Of a stretch of 64,000 bases of DNA, positions 1-46,848 are shown piece after piece; the stretch's first letter is position 1, and the number at the start of each line of letters is the position of its first letter. Origin of the DNA: a virus; IMG/VR virus record IMGVR_UViG_3300028840_002524, positions 1 through 64,000 of that record. One strand, written 5' to 3'. The notes under the pieces were generated by a model. The model ran no database searches. It saw only the letters and a list, made by a program, of their open reading frames with translations, and was not told the origin of the DNA. A program made the position numbers and the translations under genes.

Positions 1-352
1 CCCTCACCCCCACACCCCCAGGACTGCGCAGTCCACCCCAAAGCGGCGCCCCCACCTAAAACGGCGCTGGCGACTCAAAAACATATAGACAGATAACCAA
101 TCCAACCCAACCCCAAACCAATCCTCCCATACCTGTGTGCAAGACCCATTGGCTGACCAGCAAAGAAGCAGGTGAATGTGCGGATGGCCGCGCAGGCGTG
201 GGTGCACGTAGAGAACCATACGAAAGACGCTCCTCGATCCTGACCCCATACAATCCCACTGAGCATACCGAGATCCGTGTGAAAGGGCCGTCCCCATACA
301 ACCAACCCGCAATCCACGCATCGTTTCGGGCGCAGGCGGGTGAATGCCATTC

Positions 353-400
353 CCTGGGACCGGGACTGAAAAAAAATGAACGACTGTCGCTACCGACAGT
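353..400 (+). promoter_or_regulatory. Composite repeat element, copy 1
   Basis: CCCTGGGACCGG is followed by a run of eight A, then TGAACG and the interrupted palindrome ACTGTCGCTACCGACAGT (383-400; 7-bp arms, CTAC loop). A T-run follows at 403-408, so as RNA it resembles a bidirectional terminator, while as DNA it resembles an operator. The same composite layout returns at 437-486 and 15294-15338, upstream of the two giant genes. Confidence 0.65.
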
Positions 401-414
401 TAATTTTTTGGAGG

Positions 415-432
415 ACTGTCGCTACCGACAGT
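415..432 (+). repeat. Interrupted palindrome, copy 2
   Basis: This is an exact 18-nt copy of the palindrome (7-bp arms, CTAC loop). It lacks the A-tract and TGAACG flank of copies 1, 3 and 5 and lies only 14 nt after copy 1, so the two form a closely spaced pair. Confidence 0.7.
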
Positions 433-436
433 CCCG

Positions 437-486
437 CCCTGGGAGCGCCGTCAAAAAAAAAATGAACGACTGTCGCTACCGACAGT
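437..486 (+). promoter_or_regulatory. Composite repeat element, copy 3
   Basis: CCCTGGGAGCGCC is followed by ten A, TGAACG and the exact palindrome at 469-486. The layout matches copy 1. It ends 13 nt before the -35 hexamer of the promoter candidate at 500-528, a position compatible with an operator or activator site. Confidence 0.65.
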
Positions 487-499
487 GGATGCTTTTCCC

Positions 500-528
500 T
501 TGACCGGCCCTGGGACCGGGGCGATGAT
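500..528 (+). promoter_or_regulatory. Candidate sigma70-like promoter for the first giant gene
   Basis: TTGACC (500-505; five of six to TTGACA) is separated by 17 nt from GATGAT (523-528; four of six to TATAAT). One of the CCCTGGGACCGG motifs lies inside the spacer, and palindrome copy 3 is just upstream. It would give a leader of about 130 nt before the start at 667. It is identified only by hexamer match. Confidence 0.4.
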
Positions 529-666
529 TGAGGCGAGCTACCCGGCGCGGTCACCGACCACATAGCCCCGGGAAGCGACAACCGGCTCGGCTCCCCCTGG
601 GACCGGCAACGGCCCGAAGGGACCGAGAGGCGACTTTCGAGATCACCGATTTACGAGGTTGCACCC

Positions 667-3600
667 ATGACACGCTGCCAAGCCTGCGGCCATCCTTCCG
701 TATCCCTCGCCTGTACCTCCTGCGGCACCCTTGCCGAAAACGAGAACGGCCCATCCCTGGGCGGCGGTTGGGCGCCCCATCCATACGATCCCGTCTCGGG
801 TATCTGCTTCGAGATGCACGGCAAGCACCTGCTTCCCGGGGATGAGGTGCGCGTCCAGCTCAAGAACGGCCGCAAGGCCACGGGATATGTGGACTACGCC
901 AGCACGAGCAAGACCCTCTACCTGTGCAAAGAGCATACGCGGCGCACGTGGAAGCGCGGGGTCTGGGTGCAATTCAAGGCCGAGGACATCGCCTCGGTGG
1001 ACATCGTGAAGCTATCCGAGGGCGAGGAGCGGCCGTACGCGCTAACGCTCAGGTCCGAATCCCCCGTGATTGCGGACTGGATCAAAGAGGCGCCCGAGCG
1101 CACCCCCGGCCCGCAGCACGCCCACGAGAACAACAGCCGGGCCGTGACGTTCCCCTTCCGAAAGGGCCTCGAAAGCAAGCTCTTCCGCCTCTTCGAGGAG
1201 CCCATCGGCCTCGGATGCCCCTATCTGTACCGCCTGGAGCCCGACGGTATCCTCATCGCCGACGTGACCGAGGAAACCATCACCCTGTGGAAAACCAACG
1301 ATCCCGGCCGATACCTGGGGTTCGATCCGAGAGAAAATATCCTCGATCACCTCCAAAAAATGGGGAAATCGGGGGTGGTTTTGTTGGGGCGCAAGGACTT
1401 ACGTTCGACTGTCGGTAGCGACAGTCGTTCAATTTTTGAAAATGAACCCACGCCCGCGAGCGTACGCCAGCGGCGCGGCGGCACCTACAGAACCGGCGGA
1501 AAGGCCGGTCCCGCCCGTACAGTCGTGCGCGGATTCCGTTTCCAGGTGGGTGGGAAGAAAGCACGCGGCCGACAGGCCAAGAACAAGGAGAAACAGGCGG
1601 CCGCAAAGCGCGTGGGGAAGCGCGGCCTCGCAAGGCGCATCTCCGCAGCCAAGAAGTGGCACAGGTCCTCAAGGGGCGCGGCCTATCATCGAGCTTTGGG
1701 CGATTACAACCGGGAAAGCATGAAACTGCGGTCCCAGGGGTTGTCAAAGCGCCTTTTCGAGAACGGTCTTGACTACTTTTTCGGAGATCCAGTGCTGTGG
1801 GCCCTCGATAGCCGGTCCCAGGGGGTCCGCACAGTCGCCGCTGGAGACCTGATTTCGGGTCACCTGTCAAGCACCCCTATGGGGGTGGGGGTGAATCCCC
1901 TGGGACCGACCGGGATACCAGATATGTCCACGCACGGGGAAAATTTGGCGTATGGGGAAAATTCTGCCCTGGGTGAGGAGGAGTGGAAGCCGTCGAGGCT
2001 CGGCGTCATCAAACCCGGAATGCGGGTGGTCTCCCGTGTCGGGTGGGTGGGCACGGTTCTCAAGGTGGTGGAAACGTCGAGCAACCCGTACGCGGTCGTG
2101 AAGTGGGACAAGACGGGATCGACGGGGCGGCACACGGTCACGACCCTGCATCCCGTGGAAGAGGATATGTCCACGCACGGGGAAAATTCCGCCCTTTCCG
2201 CGTCGCAGATCCGTGAGGGCGACAGTCCTGAGCTTCTACGGGCCATCGACGATTTCGCCAGCGGAATCACGCGCAAGAAGCCCGGCGGGATGTACGGGGA
2301 GTACATTCGTGCCCTTGGTATCGCCATGATGCGCGGCGGTTCGGGGCCCGATGCGAAAGCGTGGTGGCGGGCAGACCCCAAGGGATTCGACCCGAACTAC
2401 GCCTCGTGGCTCCAGGGCGAGATCGAGAAGCTGTTCAAGCAGCACGGCCAGCCCGTGAAGAAGTTCACCCCCGTGAGCGAGTCGGAAGACCGCTCTGGCG
2501 AGTCCGCAGGCCCGCGAAGCGAAAGCGTCGCCGAAGGGTCCGACGTGGTGAGCGCGGTGCAGGCAGCCATGGTGCCCACAAGGCCCAAGCGCATGCGGAA
2601 CCCGCGCACCGGGAAGATGGGCACCCTTCGCGTCCCGAGGGAACCCTCGTTCGTCGAGGACTTCCGGCCCGAGTTCCCCGAGAACCACGAGATGCAGCGC
2701 AAGCTGGCCGGGCACATCACCAAGGGGGCGTCCGAGTGGCGCGAGGAGAAAGCGCCCAGGGTTCGCCTCCCCTCCGGGTGGAGTGTGAAGCGATGGACCT
2801 ACTGGCGGCGGGACTTCCCGGAGACCCCCATGCGCAAGGAGTCGCAGGCCCTCCTCATCGCGTACCAGGGGAAGCCCGTGTTCACATTGGACTTCCAAGG
2901 CCGCAGCCCGCACGCCCTCGGCGTCGTGAAGGGGTCGAAGGTCGAGCGGCACTACGGCGTGGTGCAGGACAGCACCACGGAGTTCCTGGAAGACCTTCGG
3001 GACACCATCGAGGACGCCGGGTCCGTAGGCGAGGCCGTGGACAGCGTTACGAGCTTCACCCCCGTGAGTGAGTCCGTGAGCGAGGCGGTTGACTATGAGG
3101 ATCCGAAATATGAGGACCTTGTGAGCTTCTTGCAGTCGGCGGGTCGTGAGGCGCTCCAGTATCCCAAGGACAAATGGAGCAGCGTGTACTTCAAAAACGT
3201 GAAAGCGCATCACGTGGCGGAAATCGACTTCCCCGCCTTTAACGCGGCGAAGCGGGGGGTCCGGGGGATCACGAAGGATATGTACGACCACGCCCTCGCC
3301 GGGGCCTTCGAGAACCTGCAAGACGAGATCGAGGGGGCCAGCTCGTTCGAGTGGGGCGATAAGGAGGGGTTCATTGGCCGGGATCCCAAGACGCAGGATT
3401 ACCGAATGTTCCCTGTCGATGAGAGCGTGAGTGAATCCGTGAACGAGGCGGTAGGTCGGGACGCTTTCCACATCTGGCACATCACGGGCGCGAGCAACGC
3501 CAAGGCCATCCAGTCGGGCGGGTTCAAGCCCATGCCCACGAGCAAGGGACCGGGGGTATCGGTGGCCGTGCACCCGGCTGCGGCCCGGGGCCTTTTGCGG

Positions 3601-6600
3601 ACGGCGCAGCGCATGTTCTCGTTCCGGACCTTCGAGGACATGAAAGCGTGGTTCGTGGAGATGGGCGCGGACCCCGACGACCCCAAGTGGGGCAGGGTGG
3701 GGAACGAAGGTGATCCTGCGCGGGCGTACGTCAGTGCCATGTCCCTGTTTCACCCGGCCGTGGGTGGCAGCGCGACCAAGATCCCGAGGAATGAGTTCCT
3801 TTGGGCCGACATCGGGAAGAACCTGCATCGACAGGGGCCGCCGTTCGTGGCCGTCGAGGTCATCGGCAGTGACATGGACTTCGACGCCTATTCCGGATAC
3901 GAGGCCCTGTTCGACAAGCTTGCCGACGCCTACAAGCGGTTCTCGCCCAAGTCCATCGAGGCCGAGGTGTTCCTCGACGGCCGGGACATCGGGATCATGA
4001 ACGAGGTGTGGGACGAGCTGTACGTGGACATCAACAAGACCCCCGAGAAGATCCGCGAATCCCTCTCGGAAGGTGGGTGGTGGAACCCCAAGGAGATGAG
4101 CACCGAAGAGCTCCAGAAGGAACTCGCGGACATCGAGCGCGACTACGGGCGGAACCTCACCATGAGCGGCGGGGCCGTGGACCGTCGGCGCGGGACCATG
4201 ATCAACAAGATGCGCGAGATCAAGCGCGAATTGCAGAGCCGTGGGGTGCGGACGGAATCCGAGGTGATGGACATCGGTTTCCTCCAGGCCAAGGACCCCT
4301 ACACCGTCAAGTACGCCTGGAAACGGCGCGGGCCGATCAAGGTCGTGACGGTGGACGGGAAACGGGCCGCTGAGGAGTTTCTCGCCAGCGTGAAGCGGGA
4401 CGGCGGGAACGGGATGATCGTCAAGGGCGTGAAAGAGTCGGAAGGACCGCGAAGCGAGAGCGTTGTGGCGGAGGAGAAGTACGGAGTGTACCGGGTCTAT
4501 GTCCGCTACGGGAAGTACGGAGACAAGAAGCCGGTCCCCTACTATCTGGCAGGGACGCCATCCAGCATCCGCGAGCTGTTCGCCGATCCCGAGACGGCGG
4601 AGTACGACGAGGACGATAACAAGCTCATGCCGTACAAGATGGCGTGGGAACGCCCTGCTCGCTCTGAGGAGTCGGCCGTCACCGAAGCGAAGGAATACGT
4701 CCTTTGGGGGCTTCCCAAGGGCTCGAAGGATCAGATCGACGCCAAGGTGCTTCTCTCGAACGGGCGCAGCATGCGCGACATCGAGAAGGTCAAGAAGCTG
4801 GCCGGGCGCGACGGGTGGCACACGTTCCGGGTCCAGGTGATCGACCTCTCGAAGCCCTTCGACGCGGGTGCCGCGTTCGCCGGGGCCGTCGGCGAAGCCG
4901 TCAAGGGAATGAAGAACCTCACCTTCCTGCTCAACAAGCCCGAGGCGCCCATCGAGATGCGCGGCCGGTCGAAGAAGGGCTACATGGCCGTTTTCAAGGA
5001 GGGGAAGCACTACAAGGTGGCGCACGTGCCCACGGGCCTCGTGGCCTCCCCGCCCTTCCGCCTGCAAGCGGACGCGGCGGCTCTGGCCGTCCAGATCGAG
5101 GAGGAACTCGGGTCGAAACTCGACTTCCCGGCGGATCGGAAGCCCACCGATGTTCTCAAACGCATCGCGGACATCGTGATCGAGTACCGGATGGGCAAGC
5201 CCTTCGGCTACTGGGAGAGCGACGAGGACGGCGTGGCACCCCTGTTCGAGGGCCTTTTCGAGAGCTACAAGGCCGGGTGGATGAAGCTCACCCCCGCCGA
5301 GAAAAAGACCATGATCGAGGTGGTCAGGGCGCAGTACAAGACGCGCAGGAACGTCCCCTCGCAGCCCTACCGGGATGACTACGCGCCCATGCGCCGGGCG
5401 TTCGGCGTTCCCGCCGCCCTGGAACACAGCGGAGAGGAGCTGCCCGATCACTACTACGAAGCGTTCCGGTGGGCGTGGCAGATGGTCCAGCGCGGGGCCG
5501 ACCCCGACAAGTCCATCCCGGGAAAGATCGTGTACGAGGGCCTTTCCGAGAGCGGAGTTACGGTCAGGTACATGGGCGGTGAGCGCAGGCGTGGCCGGGG
5601 CGGCCTCCGTGGGCGCTCCATGGGCCGTGGCCCGGCCTCCTATCCGTTCGAGTTCGACCGGGGAATGGAAGATGTGGTATCCGAGCTGCGCACCTACCTC
5701 AAGGGGAAGCGGTTCAAGACCGATAACGTCGATTCGCTGACGTTCCTCGTGGGCCGTAAGGGCGCCACGGCCGCCGTCGCGTGGCTGAAAGACAAGGGGG
5801 TCCCCATCGACTACGACCTCCAGGATATGTCCGGGCCCGGCGAGGCCAAGCCTTTCGAGAGCATCCAGGAGGCCCTCCCTCGCGGGTTCAGCGTCGAGGT
5901 CGTGCAGTCGCGGAAGAACCCCGACTGGATCAAGGTGTCCGTGGAGGGCGACTTCCGGGGCGAGCGCGTGTACGGCGAGACGCAGCCCTTCCACATCGGG
6001 ATCAGCAAGCCCACCAGGAGACTCGTGGGCCAGATCACGCAGGCCGCGTTCAAGCGGGGCGAGTACGGGAAGGGCGTGCCCATGGGCCTCCAGGGCAAGC
6101 TCGAAGCCGCCGTCCTCGACGCCCTTGAGAAACACGCGGTCGAGAGGGGCATCTCGTACGCGCACCTCGAAGGGCTCGCCGAGGCCACCCGCAGGCCAAA
6201 GAAGCCCAGGGGCACCAAGACCAAGAAATTCGTGATGTACTTCCCCACCGAGCAGGACGCCATCGACTACGCCAGGGCGTTCGGCTTCAAGCCGGGGGAG
6301 ACGCGGGAGGAGAAACTCGGGTGGACCGTGGACGTGCGCCGGGGCGGCCCGGCCATGCGGTCCGATTTCATCTATACCGAGCCCAACCCTGACTTTGAGA
6401 CGTTCCTCCGGGCGTGGGTGGGCGAGCACCACGGACCGGCCATGGCCGACAGGGTGGCCGACGACTACCTGCGGATCTTCGCGGGGGCCAAGAAACCCAC
6501 GCCTTTCGAGGAGCGGCAGGCCGCCTCCATGAAGAAGCTCTACAAGGACCAGTACGGCAAGGAGCCGGGGCGCGTGAAAGCGCCCAAGGGGTCCGCAGCG

Positions 6601-9600
6601 GCGGCGCGGTTCAGGCTGCCAAGGGGCGTGCGCGTGCCCGGCGGAATGTACGCGGTGGGCCTCGCGGCCGGTCCGAACAAGGACTACCACCGGGGTTCCT
6701 GGAACGCCGAAGTGTACATCCCGCTCACGTTCGAGGTGGTGAGCACCACGGACGCGGCGGTGGACGCCGTGCACAGGTTCACAGGAAAGAACGATCTCGG
6801 CGGGAGCAACTTCTTCGAGCCGAACCGGCCCAACGGCACCCGGGCAGCCCGGAACGACCGGGCCGGGATCGTGTTCGACTCGGGCGGAATGGCTGTGGGA
6901 CGGGTCACCTACGGGGGCACCTTCATCCCCGCCGACTCACCCGGGTTCATGCGCGAGGGCCTCGAAGAGGCTGGAAAGGGACGGGCGCAGGTCATTCGAG
7001 GGATCCAGGCCGAACTCACCAAGATCATGAAGGACTTCGAGCGCGGGAAGTACAAGTCCCAGTACGACGATGTGGACGCCGTGGACGTGCACCTCCAGGT
7101 GCTCAACGGCAAGTGGAAGGTGTGGGTGGGCGAGGTTCCCGCCTCGGAGCGGCGGAAAGGGTACTGGACCTCCGAGGACTCCTGGTACTCCGTGAGCGAC
7201 GGCGAGTCGGCCAACGACCTAAAGGTCACGGCCGAGGAGATGTTCTACGACCTCGTGGGCAGGTACAGCGGCAAGTTCGAGGAGTCCGCGCCCATCGCCG
7301 AGTTCGAGCCCAGGCTCAAGCTCCCGGCCGATCCCACCGACCGGCCCAGAACCTACAAACCCAACAGAAGCGAGAAAAGCGTCATTCGCCGCACGGTGCG
7401 CGACGCCCTGGCGGTGACCTACTTCGACTCCGTGAATCAGGCCGTGTCCACCGTGGGCGACGCCATCGGGCGCCTCGGGTACCAGTTTGACGAACCCCTC
7501 TCGGGGCGGCAGCCCAAGCGGCCGGGCGAGACCGGCCGGGTGGCGCTGCATCTCCAGCGCATGACCAACGACCCCTACTGGCCCCTCGACCTGACCACAG
7601 GTCCGGTCCAGTTCACCTTTTACGTCATGCCGAACGGCAAGGTCGAGGCGGTGGGCTACTACACCGAGGGCGCCGAGGAGCGCCCCAACCCGGTCGTGGA
7701 GGGGATCAACGATCCTCACATCTTCAAGGCCGTATTCCTTGCGGGCGGCCCGGGTTCGGGCAAATCCTTCATTGCGAACCAGATGTTCAAGGGCACCGGG
7801 CTCAAGTTCCTGAACAGCGACCTCGCGTTTGAGCACCTGCTCACCAAGCGGGACCTCCCATTCGACATTAACCCGGACAACGAGGAGGTTTACGCCAAGC
7901 AGATGCAGGCCCGGGGCCGCGCCAAGGAGCTCACCAAGCTGCGGCGTCAGCTCTGGCTCGACGGGATGCTCGGGCTCGTGGTGGACGGAACGGGGAAAGA
8001 CTACGACAAGATCGCCAAGATGGCGACCAACCTCAAGGGCCTCGGGTACGACACGAGCATGGTGTTCGTGAACACGTCCCTCGACGTGGCCCACCAGCGG
8101 AACAAGGACCGGAAGCGGTCCGTCCCGGCCGACGTGGTGAACGATTCGTGGAGGCAGGTCCAGTCCAATATGGGCAAGTTCCAGGCGTTCTTCGGGAGCA
8201 AGAACTTCAAGATCGTGGACAACAGCAAGCCCCTCGACAAGCAGGGCATCCAGGAGCTGGGGGTGAACCTGCGCCGGGCGGCCATGAAGATGACCGACGG
8301 ACCCATCGAGAACCCCGTGGGGCAGGCCATCGTGAACACCCTGCACAAGACCGGCGGAAAAACCATGAGCGACATCGCCAACGCCCAGACCGAGGCGGCC
8401 GCGAGGATGCACGGGTACCTTGGCACGTTCATCGCCGAGTTCAGGGGCCTCGACAGCGCCGCCCTCCGGGTCCTTCTGGCCGAGACCACGGTGGACGCAG
8501 AGGTCCGGGAGATCATGGAACTTCGGAAAGACCTCGCCAAGGCGGAGGCCGAGGGCGACGAGACCAAGGTGGCGGGCATTCGGTACGCCCTCGGGATGGC
8601 CGAGGCCGCGCTGGAGGTCGCCCAGGGCGAGGAGGGCCTGGAAGCGGAGGAAGAGCTCCAGGACATGGGGGTTACGTTCTACAAGGAGGGACGGCCATCG
8701 ACGGTGATGGGGCCCTATCCGACGGTTTCGGCCGCCATGCTCGCGGCTGACCGGGTGTATCCCGTGGAAATAGGGGAACCGTGGGGAGATACCATCGACT
8801 CTCGCCAGCGGCGCGAGACGGTGGACGGCTATGTCGAGACCATGCCGTGGGTTACGGCCGAGGTCCTCAGCGTGGAGCCCGGTGTGGTCATGTACCACGA
8901 GGGTTCCGTGGGGGCGTCCCTCGACAGGGGCCTCCTCGAAGGGCTGCGCACCCGCGTGCGCCCCGTGGCCGACCCGTTCCTCCTCCCCGAGGGGGTCACG
9001 GCGGCACAGAAAGCGGTGGTAAAGGACCTCCGTAAGTTCTTCAAGAAAAAGAAGATAAAGGTCCGGTACAAGAGCCTCGCCACCCAGGGGCCGTGGGTCG
9101 AGGTCAGGGTGGACCAGGGGAAGGACTTCAAACCGTGGCTGAGTGGGGCAGAGCTCAAGAACTTTCCCGATGACATCCGGTCCACGGCCGTGCAGGTCCT
9201 CGGGGGCGCCCCGGGGCAACTCTCCTACGGGAACGCCCAGGGGAACATGATCGCCATGTTCCCGGAGCGGTGGTGGGACTTCCTCACCCGCATGGGCGAG
9301 AAGGTCACGCCGGTGGCCGAATCGGTGGGTGTGATGGACCTCTCGGGGGTGCAATCCATCCTCAAGGGGGCCGGGGGCAAGATCGAGCACGCGGCCGAGA
9401 AGCTAGCCGAGCTCTGGGTCAACGCGGCCGGGGCGGTCGCCCTGTTCATGAGTTACGCCCAGAAAGCCGGGGTTACCGTCGAAGTGGCCCGGAAAGCGGC
9501 GGGCGTGCTCTCGGGCATGACCGAGGCGGAGATCGAGGAGGCAATGCCCTCCTGGGGGTACACGGGCGGAACACCTGTGGGCGTGCCGCGCACAAGGGGG

Positions 9601-12726: not shown

Positions 12727-14426
12727 GCAGGCGACTCTCGGCCCGGCGCATGGCTATGGCCGAACGGGTGCATATCCCCCTGGGGTCTCTGGGAGTCCCC
12801 AGGGACGATATGCCCCAGATACGGAGCGACCTTGTTCCCGAATTCCTGCGGTGGCTCACGGCGCAGCGCGTCCCCCACCGCCGAACGCGGGTTCAGGTGG
12901 ACAAGATCAAGGCCACGCAGCGCGAGATCGACATCGACAAGGTGGCCTCGATGGTGGCCTCCGCCCCAGAGAAATCTCTCGCCAAGCCCGTGATCATCTC
13001 AAAGGACTTCTACCTCCTCGACGGGCATCACCGGTGGCTCGCCCTCGTGAACAAGGACCCGGCCTACAAGATCGAGGCCGTCCAGGTCGGCATTCCCATC
13101 TGGAAGCTCCTCGCCTACGCCCGCGAGTTTCCGCAGGCTTCCTACAAGCAGATGGGCGAGGCCGAGGAGCAGAGCGTCTACAAAAAGCGCATGCACAAGG
13201 CGCTCAAGGGGTGGAAGAAGCTTTTCCCCGTCAAGAAGGAGGGCCACAGCACAGTCGGCACCCTCTACTTCGACACGCCCGAGGAGGCGCTCAAGTGGAA
13301 AGAGGATGCGGCCGCGTTCATCGAGCGCATCAAACCCATCGGGGCCACCGAGCGAGCGCCCCAGCTCGTGAAGAAATGGGAGATGCTCAAGGACGATTTC
13401 GAAAAGTGGGTGGGGTGGGAAGACCCTCGCCGCAACCTCTACTCTTTCGAGAAAGCGGCTCGTGACATCGCTTGGACGTTCTGGGATTACCGCAAGGAAC
13501 TCCTCGACGTGTTCATGTATCAGGTCGAGCCCATCGCCGGGCCTCTCGGGCAGTCGGAGCTCAAGGGCAAGCGCGAGATGACCGACGTGAAGCGCATTGG
13601 CCCGTTCCATCTCGGGATGGCGGCCTCCGGGCCCTGGGGGAAACCGCTCGAACCGGATGAGGAGATGATCGCCAATTACAAGCGCCTATCCGACCGGCTA
13701 CCGACCATCGTAGCGAAGCTCAAGCGCAACGGTCTCCTCCAATACATGAAGGGCGTGCGGTTCCGCGTCGAGGAGGCGAAGGGGGAGGCCGGGGCAACAT
13801 ACGACGCCGTGAACAGGATGGTCCACATCAAGAACCGGGCCGACGATCACGCCGTATACCACGAACTCGCCCACCACCTGGAGCACCTGCTGAGGAAGGG
13901 ACAGCTTCACGGCGGAGCACGGCCGTGGCGCGACTGGCGGTTCTGGTTCGAGGGCACTGACGCCAAGTTCACCAAGAAAGACTACGAGGCCGTCGGGATC
14001 CACCCGGGCGAGAATCGCCACATCGAGGGGCGTCTCAAGCGGGCGCAGGTTCCGCAGTACGTGAAAATGTTCGTCAAGGCCGTGCACTACGGCTACTACG
14101 CCGCCCGCTCCCCCGGCGCGGGATGGCGATACACGGATTACATCCCGGCCAAGCACATGGGGGAGGCCCTTCAAGGTCTCATCGGTCGGCCCATCAACAC
14201 GGGGATTCCCTCGGCCTACGGCCACGTGAACGCTGGCGAAGCGTTTTCCGAGACCATGGCCTACTTCATGCTCGGGAAGCTCAAGAAGGGCACCGGTCTG
14301 TGGATGCTCAAGCAGATATTCCCCACCCTCAAGGAGTCCGATGAAAAAGACAGCAAAGAAAAAGAGCGCATCGTCGAAGCGGCCGAGCGGCGCGTCAAGC
14401 ACAGGCGCGAAGCCGAGCGTTCCTGA
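12714..14426 (+). CDS. ParB/Srx-like domain fused to a zinc metallopeptidase (570 aa)
   Basis: The ATG overlaps the end of the preceding giant gene by 13 nt, with GGAG 10 nt upstream. Residues about 60-140 form a ParB/sulfiredoxin-like domain, with a DGHHRW motif at 103-108 preceded by a predicted strand and Val/Ile-rich stretches. The C-terminal part has a gluzincin signature, HELAH at 383-387 (HExxH), with Glu509 or Glu513 in EAFSETMAYF as the likely third metal ligand. The middle (about 140-330) is a helical region I do not recognise. ParB-like and zincin domains are typical partners in phage polyvalent proteins, which fits its position between the two giant genes. It could process those proteins or host targets; the substrate is unknown. 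Confidence 0.7.
   Translation: MESVSRRLSARRMAMAERVHIPLGSLGVPRDDMPQIRSDLVPEFLRWLTAQRVPHRRTRVQVDKIKATQREIDIDKVASMVASAPEKSLAKPVIISKDFYLLDGHHRWLALVNKDPAYKIEAVQVGIPIWKLLAYAREFPQASYKQMGEAEEQSVYKKRMHKALKGWKKLFPVKKEGHSTVGTLYFDTPEEALKWKEDAAAFIERIKPIGATERAPQLVKKWEMLKDDFEKWVGWEDPRRNLYSFEKAARDIAWTFWDYRKELLDVFMYQVEPIAGPLGQSELKGKREMTDVKRIGPFHLGMAASGPWGKPLEPDEEMIANYKRLSDRLPTIVAKLKRNGLLQYMKGVRFRVEEAKGEAGATYDAVNRMVHIKNRADDHAVYHELAHHLEHLLRKGQLHGGARPWRDWRFWFEGTDAKFTKKDYEAVGIHPGENRHIEGRLKRAQVPQYVKMFVKAVHYGYYAARSPGAGWRYTDYIPAKHMGEALQGLIGRPINTGIPSAYGHVNAGEAFSETMAYFMLGKLKKGTGLWMLKQIFPTLKESDEKDSKEKERIVEAAERRVKHRREAERS
12778..12804 (+). other. Hairpin near the start of the ParB-zincin gene
   Basis: CCCTGGGG (12778-12785) pairs with CCCCAGGG (12797-12804) across an 11-nt loop. 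It resembles the CCCTGGGACC repeats of the leader. No T-run follows, so it is not a clear terminator. Confidence 0.4.
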
Positions 14427-15186
14427 GATTCATTCGAAGTCCAGGCTCGTGCCGGTCAAGTCGCTCAAGCCAAACGACTGGAACCCCAACGTCGTGCCCG
14501 ACGATATTCTCGTGTCCATCGTGGCCGGGATTCACAAGCACGGTTTCGTGGGCGCCGTCCTCGTGTGGAAGGGGCGCAACATCATCATCGACGGCGAGCA
14601 CCGCTGGATCGCCGCCAAGAAATCGGGCCTCACCAAGATCCCGATCATCGAACTCGAAGTGGATGAGGCACGAGCGCGGGAGCTCACCATTGCGTTCAAT
14701 CAGAAGCGTGGGTTCTTCGACCCCGACCGTCTGACCGACGTGGTGCAGTTCATCGCCGACAAGACCGACGCGGCCCGCAAGGACCTCCAGGTCATGCTCG
14801 GATTCTCGGCCAAGGAAATCGACGGGATGCTCCACGACGCAGCGAACGAGGCCGAGAAAGAGCTCTCCAAGAAGATCAAAGAGGAGGGAGGAAATCCCAA
14901 GGTCGAAACGCGGCCGCCCCCTCCTCCGCTTCCCCCGCCGCCCGGTGATCCCGAGGACGACGGCGGCGCAGCGGCCGCTGGCGACAGCGACTCCGCCCCC
15001 GGGTACGGCGACGGCGCTCCGACGGAGGAGAACCCAACGGGAAAATTCCCGTTCACGTTTTACGCCCCGTCCATGGACGACTACGAGCGGATGCGTGATC
15101 TCTTCTATTCAGACGGCGAGTTCTCGTTCTCGAAGCTAAACGAAATGCTGGAATCCGCCGTAGAGCATTCACAAGCCGCCGAGTAG
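14341..15186 (+). CDS. ParB-like protein (281 aa)
   Basis: The start overlaps the end of the ParB-zincin gene by 86 nt. After a Lys/Ser-rich N-terminus (about 1-30), residues 35-130 match the ParB N-terminal fold, with VPVKSLKPNDWNPN, IIIDGEHRW (DGEHRW at 84-89) and AFNQKRGFFDPDRL. ParB-like domains of this kind bind DNA or nucleotides, and some act as CTPases or nucleases; there is no evidence here for partitioning. A Pro-rich linker (about 190-205, PPPPPLPPPP) leads to a short C-terminal domain (FTFYAPSMDDYERM). It sits between the two giant genes and ends in a hairpin that overlaps its stop codon. Confidence 0.75.
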   Translation: MKKTAKKKSASSKRPSGASSTGAKPSVPEIHSKSRLVPVKSLKPNDWNPNVVPDDILVSIVAGIHKHGFVGAVLVWKGRNIIIDGEHRWIAAKKSGLTKIPIIELEVDEARARELTIAFNQKRGFFDPDRLTDVVQFIADKTDAARKDLQVMLGFSAKEIDGMLHDAANEAEKELSKKIKEEGGNPKVETRPPPPPLPPPPGDPEDDGGAAAAGDSDSAPGYGDGAPTEENPTGKFPFTFYAPSMDDYERMRDLFYSDGEFSFSKLNEMLESAVEHSQAAE

Positions 15187-15195
15187 CGGCTTTCT
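15173..15195 (+). terminator. Terminator overlapping the ParB-like stop codon
   Basis: AAGCCGC (15173-15179) pairs with GCGGCTT (15186-15192) around CGAGTA, which contains part of the TAG stop. TTTCTC follows. The stem is short but perfect, and a promoter candidate lies just downstream. Confidence 0.55.
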
Positions 15196-15261
15196 CGTGG
15201 ATACGGAAAGTAGGCCCCGGTTCCCGGATCGACCGCTGGAAAAAGGTCAAGAAAATTCTGC

Positions 15262-15292
15262 TTGACGCTCCACCAGCGGGACGTTCTACTGT
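15262..15292 (+). promoter_or_regulatory. Candidate promoter for the second giant gene
   Basis: TTGACG (15262-15267; five of six) is followed by TACTGT (15287-15292) at 19 nt, or TCTACT (15285-15290) at 17 nt. The -10 match is weak, but the site lies in a 181-nt intergenic gap, after a terminator and before repeat copy 5. Confidence 0.35.
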
Positions 15293-15293
15293 A

Positions 15294-15338
15294 CTGAGAC
15301 CGGGATAAAAAAATTGAACGACTGTCGCTACCGACAGT
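15294..15338 (+). promoter_or_regulatory. Composite repeat element, copy 5
   Basis: GAGACCGGGAT, a run of seven A, TTGAACG and the exact palindrome (15321-15338) reproduce copies 1 and 3. The arms extend to 9 bp here (CGACTGTCG/CGACAGTCG). It lies in the leader of the second giant gene, 18 nt before its ribosome binding site, so it could act on transcription or as an RNA hairpin limiting translation. Confidence 0.65.
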
Positions 15339-15367
15339 CGTGATTTTCTCCGAGTAGGAGGGCTCCC

Positions 15368-18300
15368 GTGCCTGGAAAAGCCACTCTTGCGTTTCGTCTT
15401 TACTGCTCGCTTGCCGCTTCACCGAAGCCCATTAGCGAGTTTACCCTCCTCAACAACACGGACCTTCTGACCGCCCTTCACGAGGCGGGTGCTCACCTCG
15501 AAGCGGATCTCTTCGACGCCCTGAGCGAGGACAGCAAAAGGTGGGTCCGGGACGTGGTTCTCCACATGGAGCCGTTCGACCTCAAGGAGGTCGATCTCAC
15601 CGGCAAAGTGGACTTCGACGAGTTCTGGTCCTTCCCGACCGACGAGGCGGCGCGGAGTTTCGCGTCGGGCCTCCCGGCCACGGTGGACAAGGCTGTTCGA
15701 AACAACCTCGTAGGATTCCGTGGGGTCCTGGATCAGCCCATCGAGCAGCGGGCGATCAAGGCGGGCGGCCAACTGTCCTCCTATCTGGAGTGGCACAGCG
15801 CCGTCAACGTGCAGGACACGCCTGCCCGTCCGATGGAAGCCGACATGAACTTCCCGGCGCGGCTGTGCGCCCGGTACGACCCCCGCGACGTGCGAACGCT
15901 CGCGGCCGAATACCCGGCCGATCACGTGATGCCGCAGCGCGAGAACTTCGCCAAGTTCGTCGAGGCCCTCGGCGCCATCGAGCCCCACGACGACTTCGAC
16001 CCCGTGCTGGAGCGGTTCGTCAAGGTGGCGTGGCCCTCCGAACTCATGGACAACCTCAAGGCCGCGATCCCTTCCACGGGCCTGAACTTCGAGGACCTAC
16101 GGGAGCAGGTGAGCTTCGTGGCGCGGCACCTACCGCGCACCCTCCTGTCCCTGAACCCTTCTGACCTTTCCTCCCACCTGGGCGAGCATCTCGCCCACGA
16201 GCTCGTGGAGTTCATCCACTGGGCGTTCCCGGGTGTTTCCGAAGAGGACCCCGACCCCGAGGGCGACGCCGACGCCGATGGCGAGCAGGAAGCCGACGCC
16301 GAGGGGGATGCGGAAAAGGCCAAGATGGGTGAGTCCGTGCAGATCGAGCCGAACTACGCCCTCGTGTACGTGAGCGGACGCGACGACGTGGCGAAGCTCG
16401 TGGGCCCCGCCATGGCCTCGAAGGAAATGAAAAACTGGACGGACGTGGACGGCCTGTCGAATTGGCTCATGTACGGCCACCGCATCCGCAACGTAGGCGT
16501 CATGCGGCCGAAAGACCTCGGCGGATACGCCATCTACATCCCCAAGAACCAGCTCTCCGACCTCAAGATGGTGTTCGGGGAACTCGGGATCGCGGAATCG
16601 AGCGTCCGGGTAGTGACCGCCGACGACGCCGCAAGCGTGGCGGAAGGGGGCGTCCGAGACACCCTCGGCCGGTGGTACCGCGTGATCAAAGAAGAGCTCT
16701 ACAACACCCTCATGGTCTCCGAAGCCGAGTACGCCCTGGCGTGGCTCGCGCACAAGGCGGGATTCCGCCCGGAGCCGTCCCTCGGCGAGTTCGGCCTCTC
16801 TTCGCAGCAGGCCGCCACCTCCCGCCGGGCAGCCGAGCGCATGCACGACAAGTACCCGGGTTTCGCCGGGGAAAGCGCGGGCGCCGTCAAGAGGCTCGCC
16901 AAGGTGCGGGCCCCTGCCCTCCAGGAGTACAAGCCCAGGAAGGGCAAACACACCCCGAAGCAGCGCAAGCACGGCGGCGGGAACTACGTGTTCCCTCCGA
17001 CCGAGAAGGACCCTTACGGCCGCTACCCCATGACCAACGCGGCCCAGGCCCGCAACGCCCTCGCCCGTGCCGGGGCCTGTGACGAGCAGTCCTCCTGGAT
17101 GAAAATCCGGGGAATCTCCTGCGCGGACCTCAAGAAGAAGGTCGCCAACGCCGCCAAGAAGGACTTCCCGTCCATCGAGGTAGGCGAGCGCGTGGGAGAA
17201 GCGTTCCTCGACAAAAACTGGGTCTCGTACCTGATCCCGGTGGGCGAAACCCCGGCCCTTCACAAGCAACTCCGCGCCATCAACAACAGCCAGATCGTTC
17301 CGAAGCTGGCAAAGAAAGCCCACATCCGCCCCGACATGATTTTCGGGGTAGAGACGCCGGTGGGGTTCCGCATCTTCGTGTACTCCGGGAACAAGGGCGG
17401 CGTCTTGGACATCTTGCAGCAGGCCGGGATCATGGACGCCTACGAAGGGCCATGCTCCCCTCCCGTCCAGGAAGCATATCCCGAGGGCGACACACCTCTG
17501 ACCTTCCTGTTCCGGGGCGTCTCGGCAGACCACGCCCGTGAGTGGGCCGAGGAATGGCAGGGCCTCGGGTACATCACCTCCTTCAACGTCTCTTCCTCCG
17601 GGAACGACACCACCGTCAGTATGATGGCCGGGAACCCGGGGCAGGTCCGGATCGCGGGGCTCATGCTCGGGAACTACATCGAGCCCGACGATCCCGCCTA
17701 CGGCACCCCTTCCGAGGGCGTAGAAGAGAGCCGGTCCTCCGCGCTCACGGCAGTGACCAACTACGCGGGGGTGATCAGCCGCACGGACGGAGAAGGGTAC
17801 GCCGACTTCGCCCACGCGATGGCCGACCACTACCTCTCCGGTGCCGCTCTTCCCGACCCGAAGCTCTGGGCACGGAAGTACGGCGACTTCGACCCCATCT
17901 GGGCCGACCTCGTGGGCGAGAAGGTCCGCGAGATCCTTTCGCAGCACGGCATCAACGTGCGCGAGAGCGTTTCCGAAGCCGTCATGAAGTCCATCGCCTA
18001 CATCGACCTCGACAAGAAGGAGGCGGATCGTCTTCGGGAAGCCTACGACAAGGCGAACCCGTGGGACCCCTCCTGGGGCGAGCAGTACACGATGGAATCC
18101 GACATCGTGGACCTCCTGAACAAGAACGGTCGCTTCGGCGACATGCGGGCGGAGTACGGCAAGGGCAGCGACCGCTACGCAATGCGGCTTTGGGTCGATC
18201 CGAGCCACGTGCGGCAGCTCTCGCGCCTCCTCTCGGCGGCCTACGGGCTGCGCGTGAAGGAAAGCACCGCTCTGGTGTTCGACTCCGAAGCGGTTCTCCA

Positions 18301-21300
18301 GTCCATCGCCGAGGGTGTGTTCGAACACCTGAACCGCCCTGTTTCTGTGTCCGTGGACGCCATAGGCGGGGGCATCCTGCGCGGGTTCGTCGAACCGACA
18401 GCCGCCCTGGAGCTCTTCGCCGAAGCCCTCACCCACTTGGGCGAGGGTACCGAGGTCGAGATCGACAAGAACGAGTCCATTTTCCGGGCCAAGGGACTCC
18501 CCGAGGGCCTCGGATGGGACACCCCCGGTGACCTATACCCGGCCGACGGACCGGAGGCCCTGGGCGAGGACAGCCTCTTCGCCCCCACGAAGGTCAAGCC
18601 CTCCGGGGAGACCGACAACCCGTCCAACCGGGCAGCGGCCTCCGCGAAAAAGGTCATGAGCAAGAACGGCCCCAAGAAGATGGCGAAGGACCCCAAGGAG
18701 GTGGGCCGGGGCGAGAAGGGGGACAAGGCCGGGGGCAAGAAGCCCAAGACCATCCCCCGCGACGCCAGCGGCGGCCCGGGTACCTCGGGCGAGTCCGATC
18801 CCTCCGCCGACTACACCAAGGCCACCGTCGGCGTGAAGGGCAGTCTCTTCACCGTCCTGGGCAAGAAGAAGGGCGAGAAGGGTCCCCAGGCAAAGGGAGG
18901 CGAGGCCAAGGGCAAGGTCGTGACGCCCGGCGTCGCCATCAAGTCCTTCGAGTGCACCTGCCCCCACTGCTCGAACAGCGTCAAGGAGAACGTGCTCAAG
19001 CGGTTCGCCCCGGCGCTCCTGGAGCAGGACCCGGTGGCCGGGGGCGGCGCGACGGCCGTATCCCCCGCCAACGACCGGCCCGGCAACATCGAGGCCCCTC
19101 CCGGAGCGGCCTCCACTCCTCCGAAGAGCGAGCCCGCCAAGGAGCCCGAGAAGCCCACGGAGGCCGACCCGACGAAACGTCAGGACGACGAGGAAGAGGG
19201 CGGTCCGACCCAGGGTCTCGTGTGCCCCTTCTGCGGGAAGGAAATCCCCCGCGACGTGCTCAAGGGCATGATGGGCGAACTCCTCGCCCAACTCGCGGCC
19301 CAGCTCCAGCAGGGCTCGACCAAGCCCGAGGAGCCCGAGGAAGAAAAGCCCGAGGATGAGGAAGAGGAGGAAGAGGAAACCCCGGAAGAGGAGCCCGCTC
19401 CCGAGCCCGAACCCGAGCAGCAACCGGCCCAGGCCCCGGCGGGCGAGACACCCCCGGCAGCCCCCATGGCCCCCGCAGCTCCGGGCAAGCCCAAGGAGTC
19501 CATCGAAGAGCGCGGACGGACGGACTTCGTGCAGCAGTTCATGGGCTTCGACATCACCTACTACAACGCCCGGCAAGGCTTCGAGGCCAACAGCGCCGAG
19601 GAGCTCCAGGACGCCATCGAGGCGCGGTATCCCGGCTCGTTCCGGGGCTACGTCCTCGACGCCGTGCGCTCTCTCATCGTCAAGGTGCCGGTGAAGCAGG
19701 CCGACAAGTTCGACCAGATGCTTCGGCAGCAACTCCTCAAGGTCAAGTCACCCTCGGTTATCTCCTCCTCGGTCCAGACCAAGGACGGCGAGCCCGTCGT
19801 GGAGACGGAGCAGGAGCCCGGGGAGCCGGTGATCGAGGCGGGAGGCTCTGGAATGGGTCGATTTCGGCAGGGAGCGCCCGTTAGGGGGACCGACAGCCTC
19901 AGCGTGGGTGACCTGCTTGTGAACGTGAGCAAGCAATTCGGCGCTGTGAACGTCGCTAGGGTTACCGATGTGGGTGGAATCGGCGGCGTTGTGACGGCCA
20001 TCTTCGTGGACCCGAACAATCCGTCGAAGAAACGGATGCCGTCGGACCGCGAGTTCGCCATCCACGACTTCGACACGAGCGACTACTTCTTCGCCGAAGG
20101 CGTCGAGTCCGAGGAGCCCATCGCCGTGGGCGAGATCGGGGTGGACAACGACGGAATCCCGGCCGGTGTCCGGGTCCGGGTCCTCGACAGCCACCGGGGG
20201 AAAGCCAAGGTGGACGCCGGGGGCCGCGTGATCGACGTGGCCGCCGAGGATGTTCTCGTGTACCCCTCGGGGTCCACAATCGAGGAGTGCCTCGCGGCCC
20301 TCGAAAGGGGCGAGTCCCTGGGGGCCGTCGCCATGCGGCGCCTCACCTCCAGGACCAAGGCCGTGCGCCTTGCGGCCCTGGGCGAGACCACCGAAGGATC
20401 TTCCGGGAAGTACCTCAGCATGTACTTCCCCAACGTCGAAGCGTGCCACAAGGCCAAGGCCGCCGTGGGCGCCCTGGGGAGCAAGATCACCGACGGCACC
20501 GAGGTATCTTTCGCCGTCGAGCCCCTGAACGGGGAGAGCACCCGGCTGCGCACCATCGCCGAGCAGCTCGGCGGCGCGGTTCTCCGGACGATCACCCCTC
20601 CGGGGCCGGTCGCGGAACAGCTCGACATCGACACCGACAGCACCGACCTGGGCGAGGTGAACAACCTTTTCCAGGGCGCTCTCGCGGACATCAAGGGGGC
20701 TCGTGACCTCCTGATCAAGGCCCAGACCGGAGACATGGCCCGCGCCGTGGCCCTCCTCAAGAGCATGGGGGCCAAGGAAAAGGTCATGAACGCCCTCCAG
20801 GGCGTGGCCGACTCCATCGAGGAGCACGGCACCAACCTCAAGGAGACCCTCGGGGCCCTCGACAAGGCCCACGACGTGTTCTCCAAGGCATACCCGGACG
20901 CCCCCAACGGGGCCCCGGAAGAGGAGCCCGCTCCCGAGAACGGCGAGATGCCACCGGCCGAAGAGCCCGCCCCCGAGAACGGGAACGGCGAGCCCATGCC
21001 GGTCGAAGAGCCTCCGGTGGAGGCGCCCCCGGCCGAGGAGCAGCCGCCCCCGGCGGTCTCCCCGCGCCCCGTCGAGTCCATGAACAAAATCCTGGGCGAG
21101 ATGCGCAGGTCGGCCCACTGGCCGCTGATCCGGTACGCTCTCTCCGAGGACGATTTCCAGACGTTCGGGAACTTCATGCGTTCCATCTCTCCCAAGATCA
21201 CGGCCCACGAGGTTTCCGCCGTGTTCGAGACCATCCAGGAAGTCACGGAGATGGACATGGCCCTCGAATCCGGGATCGTTCACGGAGCGCATTTCCTCGC

Positions 21301-21517
21301 CAAGAGCGACGTGGAAATGCCGGGGGAGATCACGGGACCGACCATGGCGGGGCAGGAGAAGCCGCGCCTCATCGGTGGGCAGACCGTTCGGGTCAAAGGC
21401 GTGTACTTCGGAGAGGACGGGAAACTCCGGGTGAACCTGGACGAACCCATCGAGATGACGGTGTACGCCGACGACATGATGACCGCCATCCAGAGCGGCC
21501 AGCTCGTGGCCGACTGA
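15368..21517 (+). CDS. Second giant multidomain protein, putative virion polyprotein (2049 aa)
   Basis: The GTG start has GGAGGG 5 nt upstream. An N-terminal domain (1-290) ends in an Asp/Glu/Ala-rich linker. Residues about 540-610 (YVFPPTEKDPYGRYPMTNAA) resemble a small domain seen in phage head-region proteins (DUF6582-like). Residues about 787-871 are paralogous to 520-605 of the first giant protein, both followed by a SES linker. Two similar Cys modules (CTCPHC near 1197; CPFCGKEIPRDVLKG near 1285) flank Pro/Glu-rich stretches. Linkers with [I/L/V]xE recur (GESVQ, RESVSEAV, SIAEGV, ESIEERG). Another acidic Pro-rich stretch precedes the C-terminal domain (about 1905-2049). I assign no enzyme activity. 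It shares linkers and a domain with the 4019-aa protein and lies just before the capsid genes. Confidence 0.7.
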   Translation: MPGKATLAFRLYCSLAASPKPISEFTLLNNTDLLTALHEAGAHLEADLFDALSEDSKRWVRDVVLHMEPFDLKEVDLTGKVDFDEFWSFPTDEAARSFASGLPATVDKAVRNNLVGFRGVLDQPIEQRAIKAGGQLSSYLEWHSAVNVQDTPARPMEADMNFPARLCARYDPRDVRTLAAEYPADHVMPQRENFAKFVEALGAIEPHDDFDPVLERFVKVAWPSELMDNLKAAIPSTGLNFEDLREQVSFVARHLPRTLLSLNPSDLSSHLGEHLAHELVEFIHWAFPGVSEEDPDPEGDADADGEQEADAEGDAEKAKMGESVQIEPNYALVYVSGRDDVAKLVGPAMASKEMKNWTDVDGLSNWLMYGHRIRNVGVMRPKDLGGYAIYIPKNQLSDLKMVFGELGIAESSVRVVTADDAASVAEGGVRDTLGRWYRVIKEELYNTLMVSEAEYALAWLAHKAGFRPEPSLGEFGLSSQQAATSRRAAERMHDKYPGFAGESAGAVKRLAKVRAPALQEYKPRKGKHTPKQRKHGGGNYVFPPTEKDPYGRYPMTNAAQARNALARAGACDEQSSWMKIRGISCADLKKKVANAAKKDFPSIEVGERVGEAFLDKNWVSYLIPVGETPALHKQLRAINNSQIVPKLAKKAHIRPDMIFGVETPVGFRIFVYSGNKGGVLDILQQAGIMDAYEGPCSPPVQEAYPEGDTPLTFLFRGVSADHAREWAEEWQGLGYITSFNVSSSGNDTTVSMMAGNPGQVRIAGLMLGNYIEPDDPAYGTPSEGVEESRSSALTAVTNYAGVISRTDGEGYADFAHAMADHYLSGAALPDPKLWARKYGDFDPIWADLVGEKVREILSQHGINVRESVSEAVMKSIAYIDLDKKEADRLREAYDKANPWDPSWGEQYTMESDIVDLLNKNGRFGDMRAEYGKGSDRYAMRLWVDPSHVRQLSRLLSAAYGLRVKESTALVFDSEAVLQSIAEGVFEHLNRPVSVSVDAIGGGILRGFVEPTAALELFAEALTHLGEGTEVEIDKNESIFRAKGLPEGLGWDTPGDLYPADGPEALGEDSLFAPTKVKPSGETDNPSNRAAASAKKVMSKNGPKKMAKDPKEVGRGEKGDKAGGKKPKTIPRDASGGPGTSGESDPSADYTKATVGVKGSLFTVLGKKKGEKGPQAKGGEAKGKVVTPGVAIKSFECTCPHCSNSVKENVLKRFAPALLEQDPVAGGGATAVSPANDRPGNIEAPPGAASTPPKSEPAKEPEKPTEADPTKRQDDEEEGGPTQGLVCPFCGKEIPRDVLKGMMGELLAQLAAQLQQGSTKPEEPEEEKPEDEEEEEEETPEEEPAPEPEPEQQPAQAPAGETPPAAPMAPAAPGKPKESIEERGRTDFVQQFMGFDITYYNARQGFEANSAEELQDAIEARYPGSFRGYVLDAVRSLIVKVPVKQADKFDQMLRQQLLKVKSPSVISSSVQTKDGEPVVETEQEPGEPVIEAGGSGMGRFRQGAPVRGTDSLSVGDLLVNVSKQFGAVNVARVTDVGGIGGVVTAIFVDPNNPSKKRMPSDREFAIHDFDTSDYFFAEGVESEEPIAVGEIGVDNDGIPAGVRVRVLDSHRGKAKVDAGGRVIDVAAEDVLVYPSGSTIEECLAALERGESLGAVAMRRLTSRTKAVRLAALGETTEGSSGKYLSMYFPNVEACHKAKAAVGALGSKITDGTEVSFAVEPLNGESTRLRTIAEQLGGAVLRTITPPGPVAEQLDIDTDSTDLGEVNNLFQGALADIKGARDLLIKAQTGDMARAVALLKSMGAKEKVMNALQGVADSIEEHGTNLKETLGALDKAHDVFSKAYPDAPNGAPEEEPAPENGEMPPAEEPAPENGNGEPMPVEEPPVEAPPAEEQPPPAVSPRPVESMNKILGEMRRSAHWPLIRYALSEDDFQTFGNFMRSISPKITAHEVSAVFETIQEVTEMDMALESGIVHGAHFLAKSDVEMPGEITGPTMAGQEKPRLIGGQTVRVKGVYFGEDGKLRVNLDEPIEMTVYADDMMTAIQSGQLVAD

Positions 21518-23961: not shown

Positions 23962-24339
23962 ATGACCAAACTCAAGCTTCCGGACATCCGGGACCTCGAC
24001 GTAGTGGGCCTCCACTACGAGCCCGGCCGGGGGCGCGAAACGGTGGTCATTCAGATTCCTTCGGAGGAAGGGGCGAGCACGTACAGGATCAACCTTCGGG
24101 AACCGGAGGAATACCAGTACATCGCCCGTCTGCCCAACGGGCGGAGGATTATCGACATTCTTCGGATCGAGGGTCACCTCGCGGTGAGACCACGAACCGG
24201 TGAGTTTTTGAAACTGGAGGATTCCGATGCCGCGTCTGCTGACGGATTCAATGCCTCTGTCGTTCAAGCTCTTGGAGCGTTCCGAGCAGGCAGACGGCCG
24301 CGTCCGCGTCCGTGGGAGATTTCAACACTGCGACCTTAA
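23962..24339 (+). CDS. Hypothetical protein upstream of the protease (125 aa)
   Basis: It starts one base after the stop of the previous gene. The first 85 residues look like a small beta-rich domain (VVGLHYEPGRGRETVVIQIP; YRINLREPEEYQYIARLPNG). Its last 38 codons overlap the protease gene by 113 nt in another frame and are Arg/Pro-rich, so they may be a non-functional tail. No family is recognised. Confidence 0.55.
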   Translation: MTKLKLPDIRDLDVVGLHYEPGRGRETVVIQIPSEEGASTYRINLREPEEYQYIARLPNGRRIIDILRIEGHLAVRPRTGEFLKLEDSDAASADGFNASVVQALGAFRAGRRPRPRPWEISTLRP

Positions 24340-33521: not shown

Positions 33522-35243
<1,722 letters not shown>

Positions 35244-46807: not shown

Positions 46808-46848
46808 AGCCGGGGAACGCATGACGACCGACTATTAGGAGTAGAAAC

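Follow-up and report, generated by a model that had tools for sequence, protein, structure and literature searches.

The first 64 kilobases (kb) of the 116,195-base uncultured virus record IMGVR_UViG_3300028840_002524, hereafter the window, belong to an uncultured, T4-related, contractile-tailed phage and contain two giant open reading frames (ORFs) of 4019 and 2049 amino acids (aa), here called giant 1 and giant 2. A previous sequence-only reading had proposed that the linkers of both look like sites of a prohead protease similar to gp21 of phage T4. Both ORFs are confirmed, and the proposal is supported by the module borders of a relative, which lie at the protease motif, by the leader site of stand-alone homologues of one module and by an inter-domain coil in a structure model. 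We consider it likely that the giants are head polyproteins, in which internal (ejection) modules are joined by sites for the gp21-like protease, and that they are cut in trans and injected with the DNA. Since the genes for the protease, the capsid protein and then the tail (sheath, tape measure and baseplate genes, located beyond the capsid gene) follow downstream, the giants form the head end of the structural block of a contractile-tailed phage. Giant 1 is made up of an N-terminal core with a zinc-ribbon-like start (aa 1-433), a shuffled middle (aa ~434-2210), a kinase module (2213-2606) and a conserved C-terminal part (2956-4019). The coordinates of all these features are collected in Table 1, and a slash marks the predicted cut in the motifs below.

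Every linker string named in the sequence-only reading was found in the two giants. The plain [LI]xE triplet, which it had taken as the signal, is not significantly enriched over shuffled sequences in giant 1 (41 vs 34.1, P = 0.11) and is marginally so in giant 2 (28 vs 20.4, P = 0.049). The enriched unit is an extended, often tandem site. In giant 1, [LIV]xE[AGS] occurs 39 times vs 15.2 in shuffles, [SG][LIV]xE[AGS] 15 vs 2.3 and E[SG][LIV]xE[AGS] 10 vs 0.17; the same motifs are more weakly enriched in giant 2 (15 vs 9.2, 6 vs 1.3 and 2 vs 0.11, respectively). The giant 1 homologue of the relative phage G001 (IMGVR_UViG_3300017991_000005, 131 kb) also has the extended motif in excess (6 vs 0.10 in shuffles). 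The comparison with a shuffled background that had been suggested is thus favorable to the extended form, which is many-fold above expectation, but not to the plain triplet, which stays near background in giant 1. Controls in which the motif elements are rearranged without a change in composition ([LIV]..E[AGS] and [LIV]E.[AGS], for example) remain at background level, and E[SG][LIV]xE[AGS] is found 12 times in the giants (6,068 aa) vs once in the other plus-strand ORFs of the 116-kb record (28,410 aa; Fisher 1e-8). Tandem sites four residues apart, [LIV]xE[AGS][LIV]xE, number 8 in the two giants together vs 0.38 expected, and the extended site often forms runs of two or three, as in PVDE/SVSE/SVNE/A; the Glu at P5 of the extended motif is due to this tandem arrangement. 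On a composition scale, disorder next to the sites does not exceed the average and the Glu of a site is not separable from other Glu residues, so that the linkers are short and do not constitute long low-complexity regions. Two sites of the sequence-only reading are weak: AITE/AW (aa 3062 of giant 1), which lacks conservation in the relative, and SIEE/R (aa 1381 of giant 2), which has a large P1' residue. Giant 1 has about 14 supported sites and giant 2 has 7, and cleavage at all of them would yield some 20 predicted products, most of them of 80-300 aa.

The enzyme expected to recognize these sites is encoded just downstream of the giants, where a gp21-like protease had been announced. The corresponding 762-aa protein matches Peptidase_S77 in Pfam above the cut-off (5.6e-17 / 1.1e-14) and the head maturation protease family phrog_207 (2.6e-38). 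The rest of this protein looks like a scaffold, given the gene order and its low-complexity acidic sequence, and a candidate autocleavage site lies at the junction of both parts. Other candidate sites are found at the N-terminus of the capsid protein, where GITE/S (aa 42), FVNE/S (80) and LDE/T (88) may delimit a propeptide and have their Glu kept in G001. Two marks of T4-type substrates are present: a Peptidase_S77 protein is encoded, and (L/I)xE followed by a small residue is found at the segment borders, V being also common at P3.

The comparison with G001 shows that the borders of the modules follow the motif. G001 is the one relative with comparable giants that was found: the viral contigs searched with the whole giant 1 contained no relative, those searched with the capsid protein and the protease returned G001 alone and the genome contigs none, a search of the phage collection with giant 2 or the other parts of giant 1 gave no match, and seven further phage records did not contain giant 2. 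In spite of the 93% identity of the capsid proteins and the 75% identity of the proteases, the middle of giant 1 has only a few blocks in common with G001, and the modules of the homologous giants have been shuffled, inserted and swapped. In G001, two ORFs take the place of giant 1, one of 2678 aa and a separate one of 872 aa, the latter being equivalent to the last 858 aa of giant 1. After blocks in Pro/Glu-rich stretches had been removed by hand, 15 of the 58 block ends lay within 3 aa of the Glu of an [LIV]xE[AGS] site, vs 2.9 ± 1.8 expected from rotation (P ≤ 0.0005); when block ends were merged into 47 junctions, 13 were at sites vs 2.5 expected (P = 0.0002). The control motifs [LIV]xD and [LIV]xK show no excess at block ends. 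The reversed control E.[LIV] does show one, as would be expected if E-S-[LIV] belongs to the linker. Individual junctions are precise. A module that begins with AKEY stands directly behind AVTE in giant 1 and directly behind GLGE in giant 2 of G001, that is, in the other giant but at the identical cut point. At SVSE/AVMK of giant 2, the left side matches G001 at GLGE/AKEY and the right side matches nothing; at KPKES-IEE, G001 carries ~90 aa more, which end in ESVQE/A. The linkers are spelled differently in the two phages (ESVSE/A here vs ESLGE/A in G001), so it is the pattern and not the letters that is conserved.

The most informative module is the kinase of giant 1. Aa 2346-2606 correspond to a P-loop kinase according to Pfam (AAA_33 and Zeta_toxin), phrog_12810 (6e-46) and Foldseek, whose best match is the bacterial Pnkp kinase 4gp7, followed by zeta toxin and, further down, by T4 Pnk. 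It is the sole module of the giants that was identified with Pfam, PHROG and Foldseek, though many unrelated modules occur. Of the separate effectors foreseen by the sequence-only reading, one is therefore recognizable, this polynucleotide-kinase/zeta-like kinase; no further effector was shown, and the idea of an ADP-ribosyltransferase (ART) is an analogy with Agrobacterium phage Atu_ph07 and T4 Alt. The kinase is encoded as a separate gene in dozens of phages, including Pelagibacter phage HTVC008M, Methylophilales phages and many viral contigs. Among 521 relatives in the candidate stretches, 80 were kept, and 63 distinct copies allowed the domain start to be matched. All 63 have Glu at P1, and P3 is occupied by L in 44, I in 12, V in 4 and M in 3 of them. 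The residue at P1' is Gly; the extraction, however, admitted only G or A at this position, while P1 was left free. In the stand-alone kinases, the site is preceded by a short Met-initiated leader, mostly of about 9-22 residues, such as MKTFKELQE/G, MKSYTDLQE/G, MKTFKSFLNE/G or MKSFEQILSE/G. These leaders resemble those of the T4 internal proteins, which read MKTYQEFIAE/A in IPII and IPIII and MKTFKEFTSTTTPVSTITE/A in IPI in the T4 record (the cut position of IPI being taken from the motif). For IPIII of T4, the ten N-terminal residues are enough to direct a protein into the head and are cleaved off by gp21 (PMC9026906).

The fused kinases retain the site at their N-terminal border: VVE/G in giant 1, IVE/G in G001, SVEE/G in L050, ELEE/G in L058, NINE/G in L065 and VTE/G in Atu_ph07. 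At the C-terminal border, the stand-alone kinases mostly end 10-45 aa past a conserved AKxWI, and most fused ones (giant 1, G001, L050, L080, L065, L026) have an [LIV]xE there, L031 being less clear. Such a pattern would be expected for an internal protein, once separate, whose leader site had turned into an internal joint. The kinase is not alone in this respect, as the AKEY module (in phage contig L108) and the last 858 aa of giant 1 (in G001) also occur as separate proteins.

The modelling of domain boundaries, another check that had been suggested, agrees with this interpretation. An AlphaFold2 model of aa 2202-2606 of giant 1, based on 42 sequences (predicted local distance difference test, pLDDT, of 83), contains a globular domain at ~2234-2333 and the kinase at ~2351-2591. 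The coil between them has a pLDDT <50 at aa 2334-2341 and ends at Glu2345, so that in the model this predicted site is the end of a disordered inter-domain coil; the predicted site Glu2212 is among the first 14 residues, which have low confidence. In the alignment behind the model E144-G145 is invariant, but this does not amount to independent evidence, because the sequences had been picked by their E-G pattern; that evidence comes from the comparison of the 63 copies, in which P1 was free. A single-sequence model of aa 787-1839 of giant 1 had a pLDDT of 36 and was not used.

Taken together, these data are best explained by the following scenario. Each giant would be a chain of small internal protein modules with [LIV]-x-E/[AGS] joints, often in tandem, and the precursors would be recruited into the prohead core, probably via their conserved ends. 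The prohead protease would then cut them in trans inside the prohead into roughly 20 mature proteins, and would simultaneously free itself from its scaffold part at ALTE/GKIP and trim the capsid protein at GITE/S, FVNE/S and LDE/T. The fragments would remain in the head and be injected with the DNA, the kinase being one of them. Cutting an internal protein on either side has a precedent in T4 Alt, which gp21 cuts at both ends, at ITE and LTE (PMC5694885). That the precursors are cut and packaged, that the fragments are injected, and what these fragments do is inferred from this body of observations.

Several points weigh against a polyprotein. The evidence comes from genes and predicted structure, and the conservation is that of a single phage pair. 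The motif excess in giant 2 is moderate, and composition gives no sign of unusual disorder next to the sites. Giant 1 is collinear with G001 over its last ~1060 aa (aa ~2956-4019); this part has few credible sites and would probably yield one or two products. Evolutionary joints are not the same thing as protease sites, and recombination at repeated linker codons could also put motifs at borders. Neither giant has a T4-type leader at its N-terminus; they are therefore not classed as T4-type internal proteins and would only work like a chain of them.

The main rival explanation is that the giants are intact polyvalent proteins, that is, multidomain virion giants injected whole, whose Ser/Glu/Ala segments are flexible joints copied by recombination. 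Multidomain polyvalent proteins are well documented and the virion RNA polymerase of phage N4 is packaged uncut (PMC5512222); module shuffling is seen here too, and a motif at the borders would also be expected if these were recombination joints. Yet, the joint fits the specificity of the protease encoded nearby, and does so in two phages that spell it differently, an identical site precedes the kinase in stand-alone genes, where no joint exists, and a flexible joint has no need of tandem sites four residues apart. The protease match, the tandem sites and the equivalence with leaders make this alternative rather unlikely. A second possibility is that the modules are released by another protease, for example the metallopeptidase-like domain of the 570-aa gene that overlaps the end of giant 1 (12714-14426). 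The N-terminal part of the protein (aa 19-150) is ParB-like and 69% identical in G001, a part with a HELAH (HEXXH) motif at aa 383 follows, MGE/A lies near the border of the two parts, and embedded metallopeptidases have been proposed as the processing enzymes of polyvalent proteins (PMC5512222). Nevertheless, the linker motif is of the prohead protease type and is kept in G001, whereas in the G001 stretches searched the ParB-like part alone was matched and the HEXXH half has no counterpart, which makes such a release very improbable. Finally, the view that these are Glu-rich proteins with unremarkable [LIV]xE triplets, to which the unenriched plain triplet of giant 1 would lend itself, is largely refuted by extended and tandem motifs many-fold above shuffles and by their coincidence with module borders, and hardly deserves credence.

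Similar joints and leaders were observed in other phages. Phage contig L065 (5.9 kb) encodes at 33-3923 a 1296-aa protein with a kinase and a cytidylyltransferase-like stretch (Pfam 0.0015, below the cut-off), in which ILTE/A, NINE/G, GLSE/A, ILKE/A and LIIE/G lie between blocks; an RNA-ligase-like block was also noticed by eye. This protein may be a packaged nucleic-acid repair polyprotein. In the cyanophages Bellamy and SynMITS9220M01, a small protein begins with MKSFKQFQE/SWSNKYKKS or MKTFKQFQE/GWSNKYKKS, and in P-TIM68 the same small-protein sequence is found inside a 373-aa protein adjoining the capsid gene, behind MNE/G. In L108 (4842-8090), the stand-alone AKEY module adjoins several clustered small genes, whose leaders include MNSFKSYLYE/A and MSRLNTEKYSSLNE/S. 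Atu_ph07 has a tandem array, gp062-gp053 (L015, 11567-21590), most of whose products begin with M[KR]W..L[TN]E. The proteins gp053 to gp062 are ART-like by eye only (YRG motif); gp054 appears to have two ART-like domains, and in gp053 an ART-like domain is joined to a kinase via VTE/G. Its products would seem to form a family of Alt-like proteins that are packaged and have capsid-targeting leaders. According to PMC6102473, 29 proteins from coding sequences 31-76, a range that includes gp053 to gp062, were detected in virions by mass spectrometry. These data and the location of the giants beside the head genes bear on injection only indirectly. We incline, with somewhat less assurance than for the giants as such, to the view that this is a DNA phage with true polyproteins, a set of packaged proteins being made as two giant precursors and freed in the prohead by the capsid protease, and that it exemplifies a more general tendency of T4-related phages to fuse the genes of internal proteins at their leader sites, which thereby turn into internal joints where modules can be added, swapped or removed.

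The proposed system has features of several known ones. It is similar to T4 IPI, IPII, IPIII and Alt in the Peptidase_S77 class of the protease, the (L/I)xE/small sites and the destination of the proteins in the head core, as well as in the T4-like leaders of the stand-alone kinase homologues. Contrary to the T4 internal proteins, each of which has one gene and one leader, many modules are here contained in two ORFs and former leader sites have become internal. The giants are also reminiscent of polyvalent proteins (Iyer et al. 2017, PMC5512222), which are giant and multidomain, have shuffled modules and a zeta-like kinase, include ParB-like and metallopeptidase-like domains (found here in the adjoining gene) and have been proposed to be injected; but those are released, if at all, by an embedded metallopeptidase, according to a proposal, and not, as predicted here, in trans at sites of the capsid maturation protease. 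Head proteins of phiKZ and SPN3US, with their long propeptides, resemble the giants in that a single protein carries several sites of the prohead protease and that ejection proteins are cleaved, as predicted here. In these phages, by contrast, the protease removes propeptides, along with its own C-terminal one, and no multi-product precursor was found in the phiKZ/SPN3US literature searched. The polyprotein strategy is so far best known from animal RNA viruses. The polyproteins of eukaryotic positive-strand RNA viruses likewise combine a long ORF, a viral protease and short repeated sites between functional units, yet they have neither domains nor a protease family in common with this DNA phage, in which cleavage is predicted in the assembling head, and the resemblance is an analogy only. 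Gp21-type proteolysis, capsid-targeting leaders and polyvalent proteins were already known. No description of polyprotein processing in tailed phages, or of this combination, in which the capsid protease would cut a polyprotein in trans where leader sites used to be, turned up in the literature searched, which covers few subscription journals. If the scenario holds, a single targeting event for each precursor would bring different proteins into the head in equimolar amounts. The sites would then serve as plug-in points at which injected proteins can be swapped, which would allow a rapid turnover of counter-defence modules. It would also provide a rule for reading uncharacterised giant proteins of T4-related phages, namely to look for tandem [LIV]xE/[AGS] and to split the protein there.

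Table 1. Positions in the window of the giant ORFs, their modules and candidate cleavage sites (codon of the P1 Glu), and the head genes
Feature	Position	Strand	Basis or remark
Giant 1, proposed head polyprotein, 4019 aa	667..12726	+	Uninterrupted ORF
Giant 1 Glu623, RSESVAE/GSDV	2533..2535	+	Extended motif
Giant 1 Glu806, tandem PVSE/SVSE/AVDY	3082..3084	+	Tandem motif
Giant 1 Glu927, triple PVDE/SVSE/SVNE/AVGR	3445..3447	+	Tandem motif
Giant 1 Glu1135, tandem KIRE/SLSE/GGWW	4069..4071	+	Tandem motif
Giant 1 Glu1257, KGVKE/SEGP	4435..4437	+	G001 homology block ends; NESLGE/G in G001
Giant 1 Glu1340, SAVTE/AKEY	4684..4686	+	Left border of AKEY module; GLGE/AKEY in G001 giant 2
AKEY module, giant 1 aa 1341-1410	4687..4896	+	Swapped between giants; separate small gene in L108
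Giant 1 Glu1628, tandem IVYE/GLSE/SGVT	5548..5550	+	Tandem motif
Giant 1 Glu1735, ESIQE/ALPR	5869..5871	+	Motif
Giant 1 Glu1839, EGLAE/ATRR	6181..6183	+	Motif
Giant 1 Glu2101, EGLEE/AGKG	6967..6969	+	Motif
Giant 1 Glu2212, APIAE/FEPR	7300..7302	+	Matching G001 border ESLAE/ADEF; low-confidence N-terminal stretch of model
Giant 1 Glu2345, NPVVE/GINDP	7699..7701	+	Kept in 63/63 distinct kinase homologues
P-loop kinase module (polynucleotide-kinase/zeta-like), aa 2346-2606	7702..8484	+	Pfam, phrog_12810, Foldseek
Giant 1 Glu2606, LLAE/TTVD	8482..8484	+	G001 homology stops; LLGE/G in G001
Giant 1 Glu2885, TPVAE/SVGV, weaker	9319..9321	+	Motif
Giant 2, second proposed head polyprotein, 2049 aa, GTG start	15368..21517	+	Uninterrupted ORF; 2481-aa homologue in G001
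Giant 2 Glu426, SVAE/GGVR	16643..16645	+	Motif and G001 comparison
Giant 2 Glu611, ERVGE/AFLD	17198..17200	+	Homology block ends at aa 609
Giant 2 Glu787, EGVEE/SRSS	17726..17728	+	Motif
Giant 2 Glu870, tandem NVRE/SVSE/AVMK	17975..17977	+	Right-hand module replaced exactly here in G001 (AVRE/GLGE/AKEY)
Giant 2 Glu982, QSIAE/GVFE	18311..18313	+	Motif
Giant 2 Glu1026, THLGE/GTEV	18443..18445	+	G001 extra module exactly here (THLGE/A ... GLASE/S)
Giant 2 Glu1381, ESIEE/RGRT	19508..19510	+	G001 extra module here (ES ... VESVQE/AGRT)
Prohead protease with scaffold-like C-terminal part, 762 aa	24227..26515	+	Peptidase_S77, phrog_207; 75% identical in G001
Peptidase_S77 (T4 gp21-like) domain	24302..24730	+	Pfam match
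Glu184, candidate autocleavage site ALTE/GKIP, protease/scaffold junction	24776..24778	+	Conserved island in divergent stretch
Major capsid protein	26556..28019	+	phrog_138 2e-18; 93% identical in G001

Polyvalent proteins are often accompanied by ParB-like domains close to head genes. Besides the 570-aa gene, two ParB-like genes lie near the head genes of the window, at 14341-15186 (67% identical in G001) and at 29445-30317. Three proteins match phrog_6128, one without an assigned role (21912-22610), the tail sheath protein (43799-46807) and a baseplate wedge protein (53814-56732), which suggests a common inserted domain in several virion proteins. A 573-aa tail fibre protein (33522-35243) has matches to many fibre and collagen-like families. 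Two long ORFs are found on the opposite strand, one of 1512 aa (2236-6774) opposite giant 1 and one of 991 aa (43847-46822) opposite the tail sheath gene; they are most likely shadow ORFs of a GC-rich genome.

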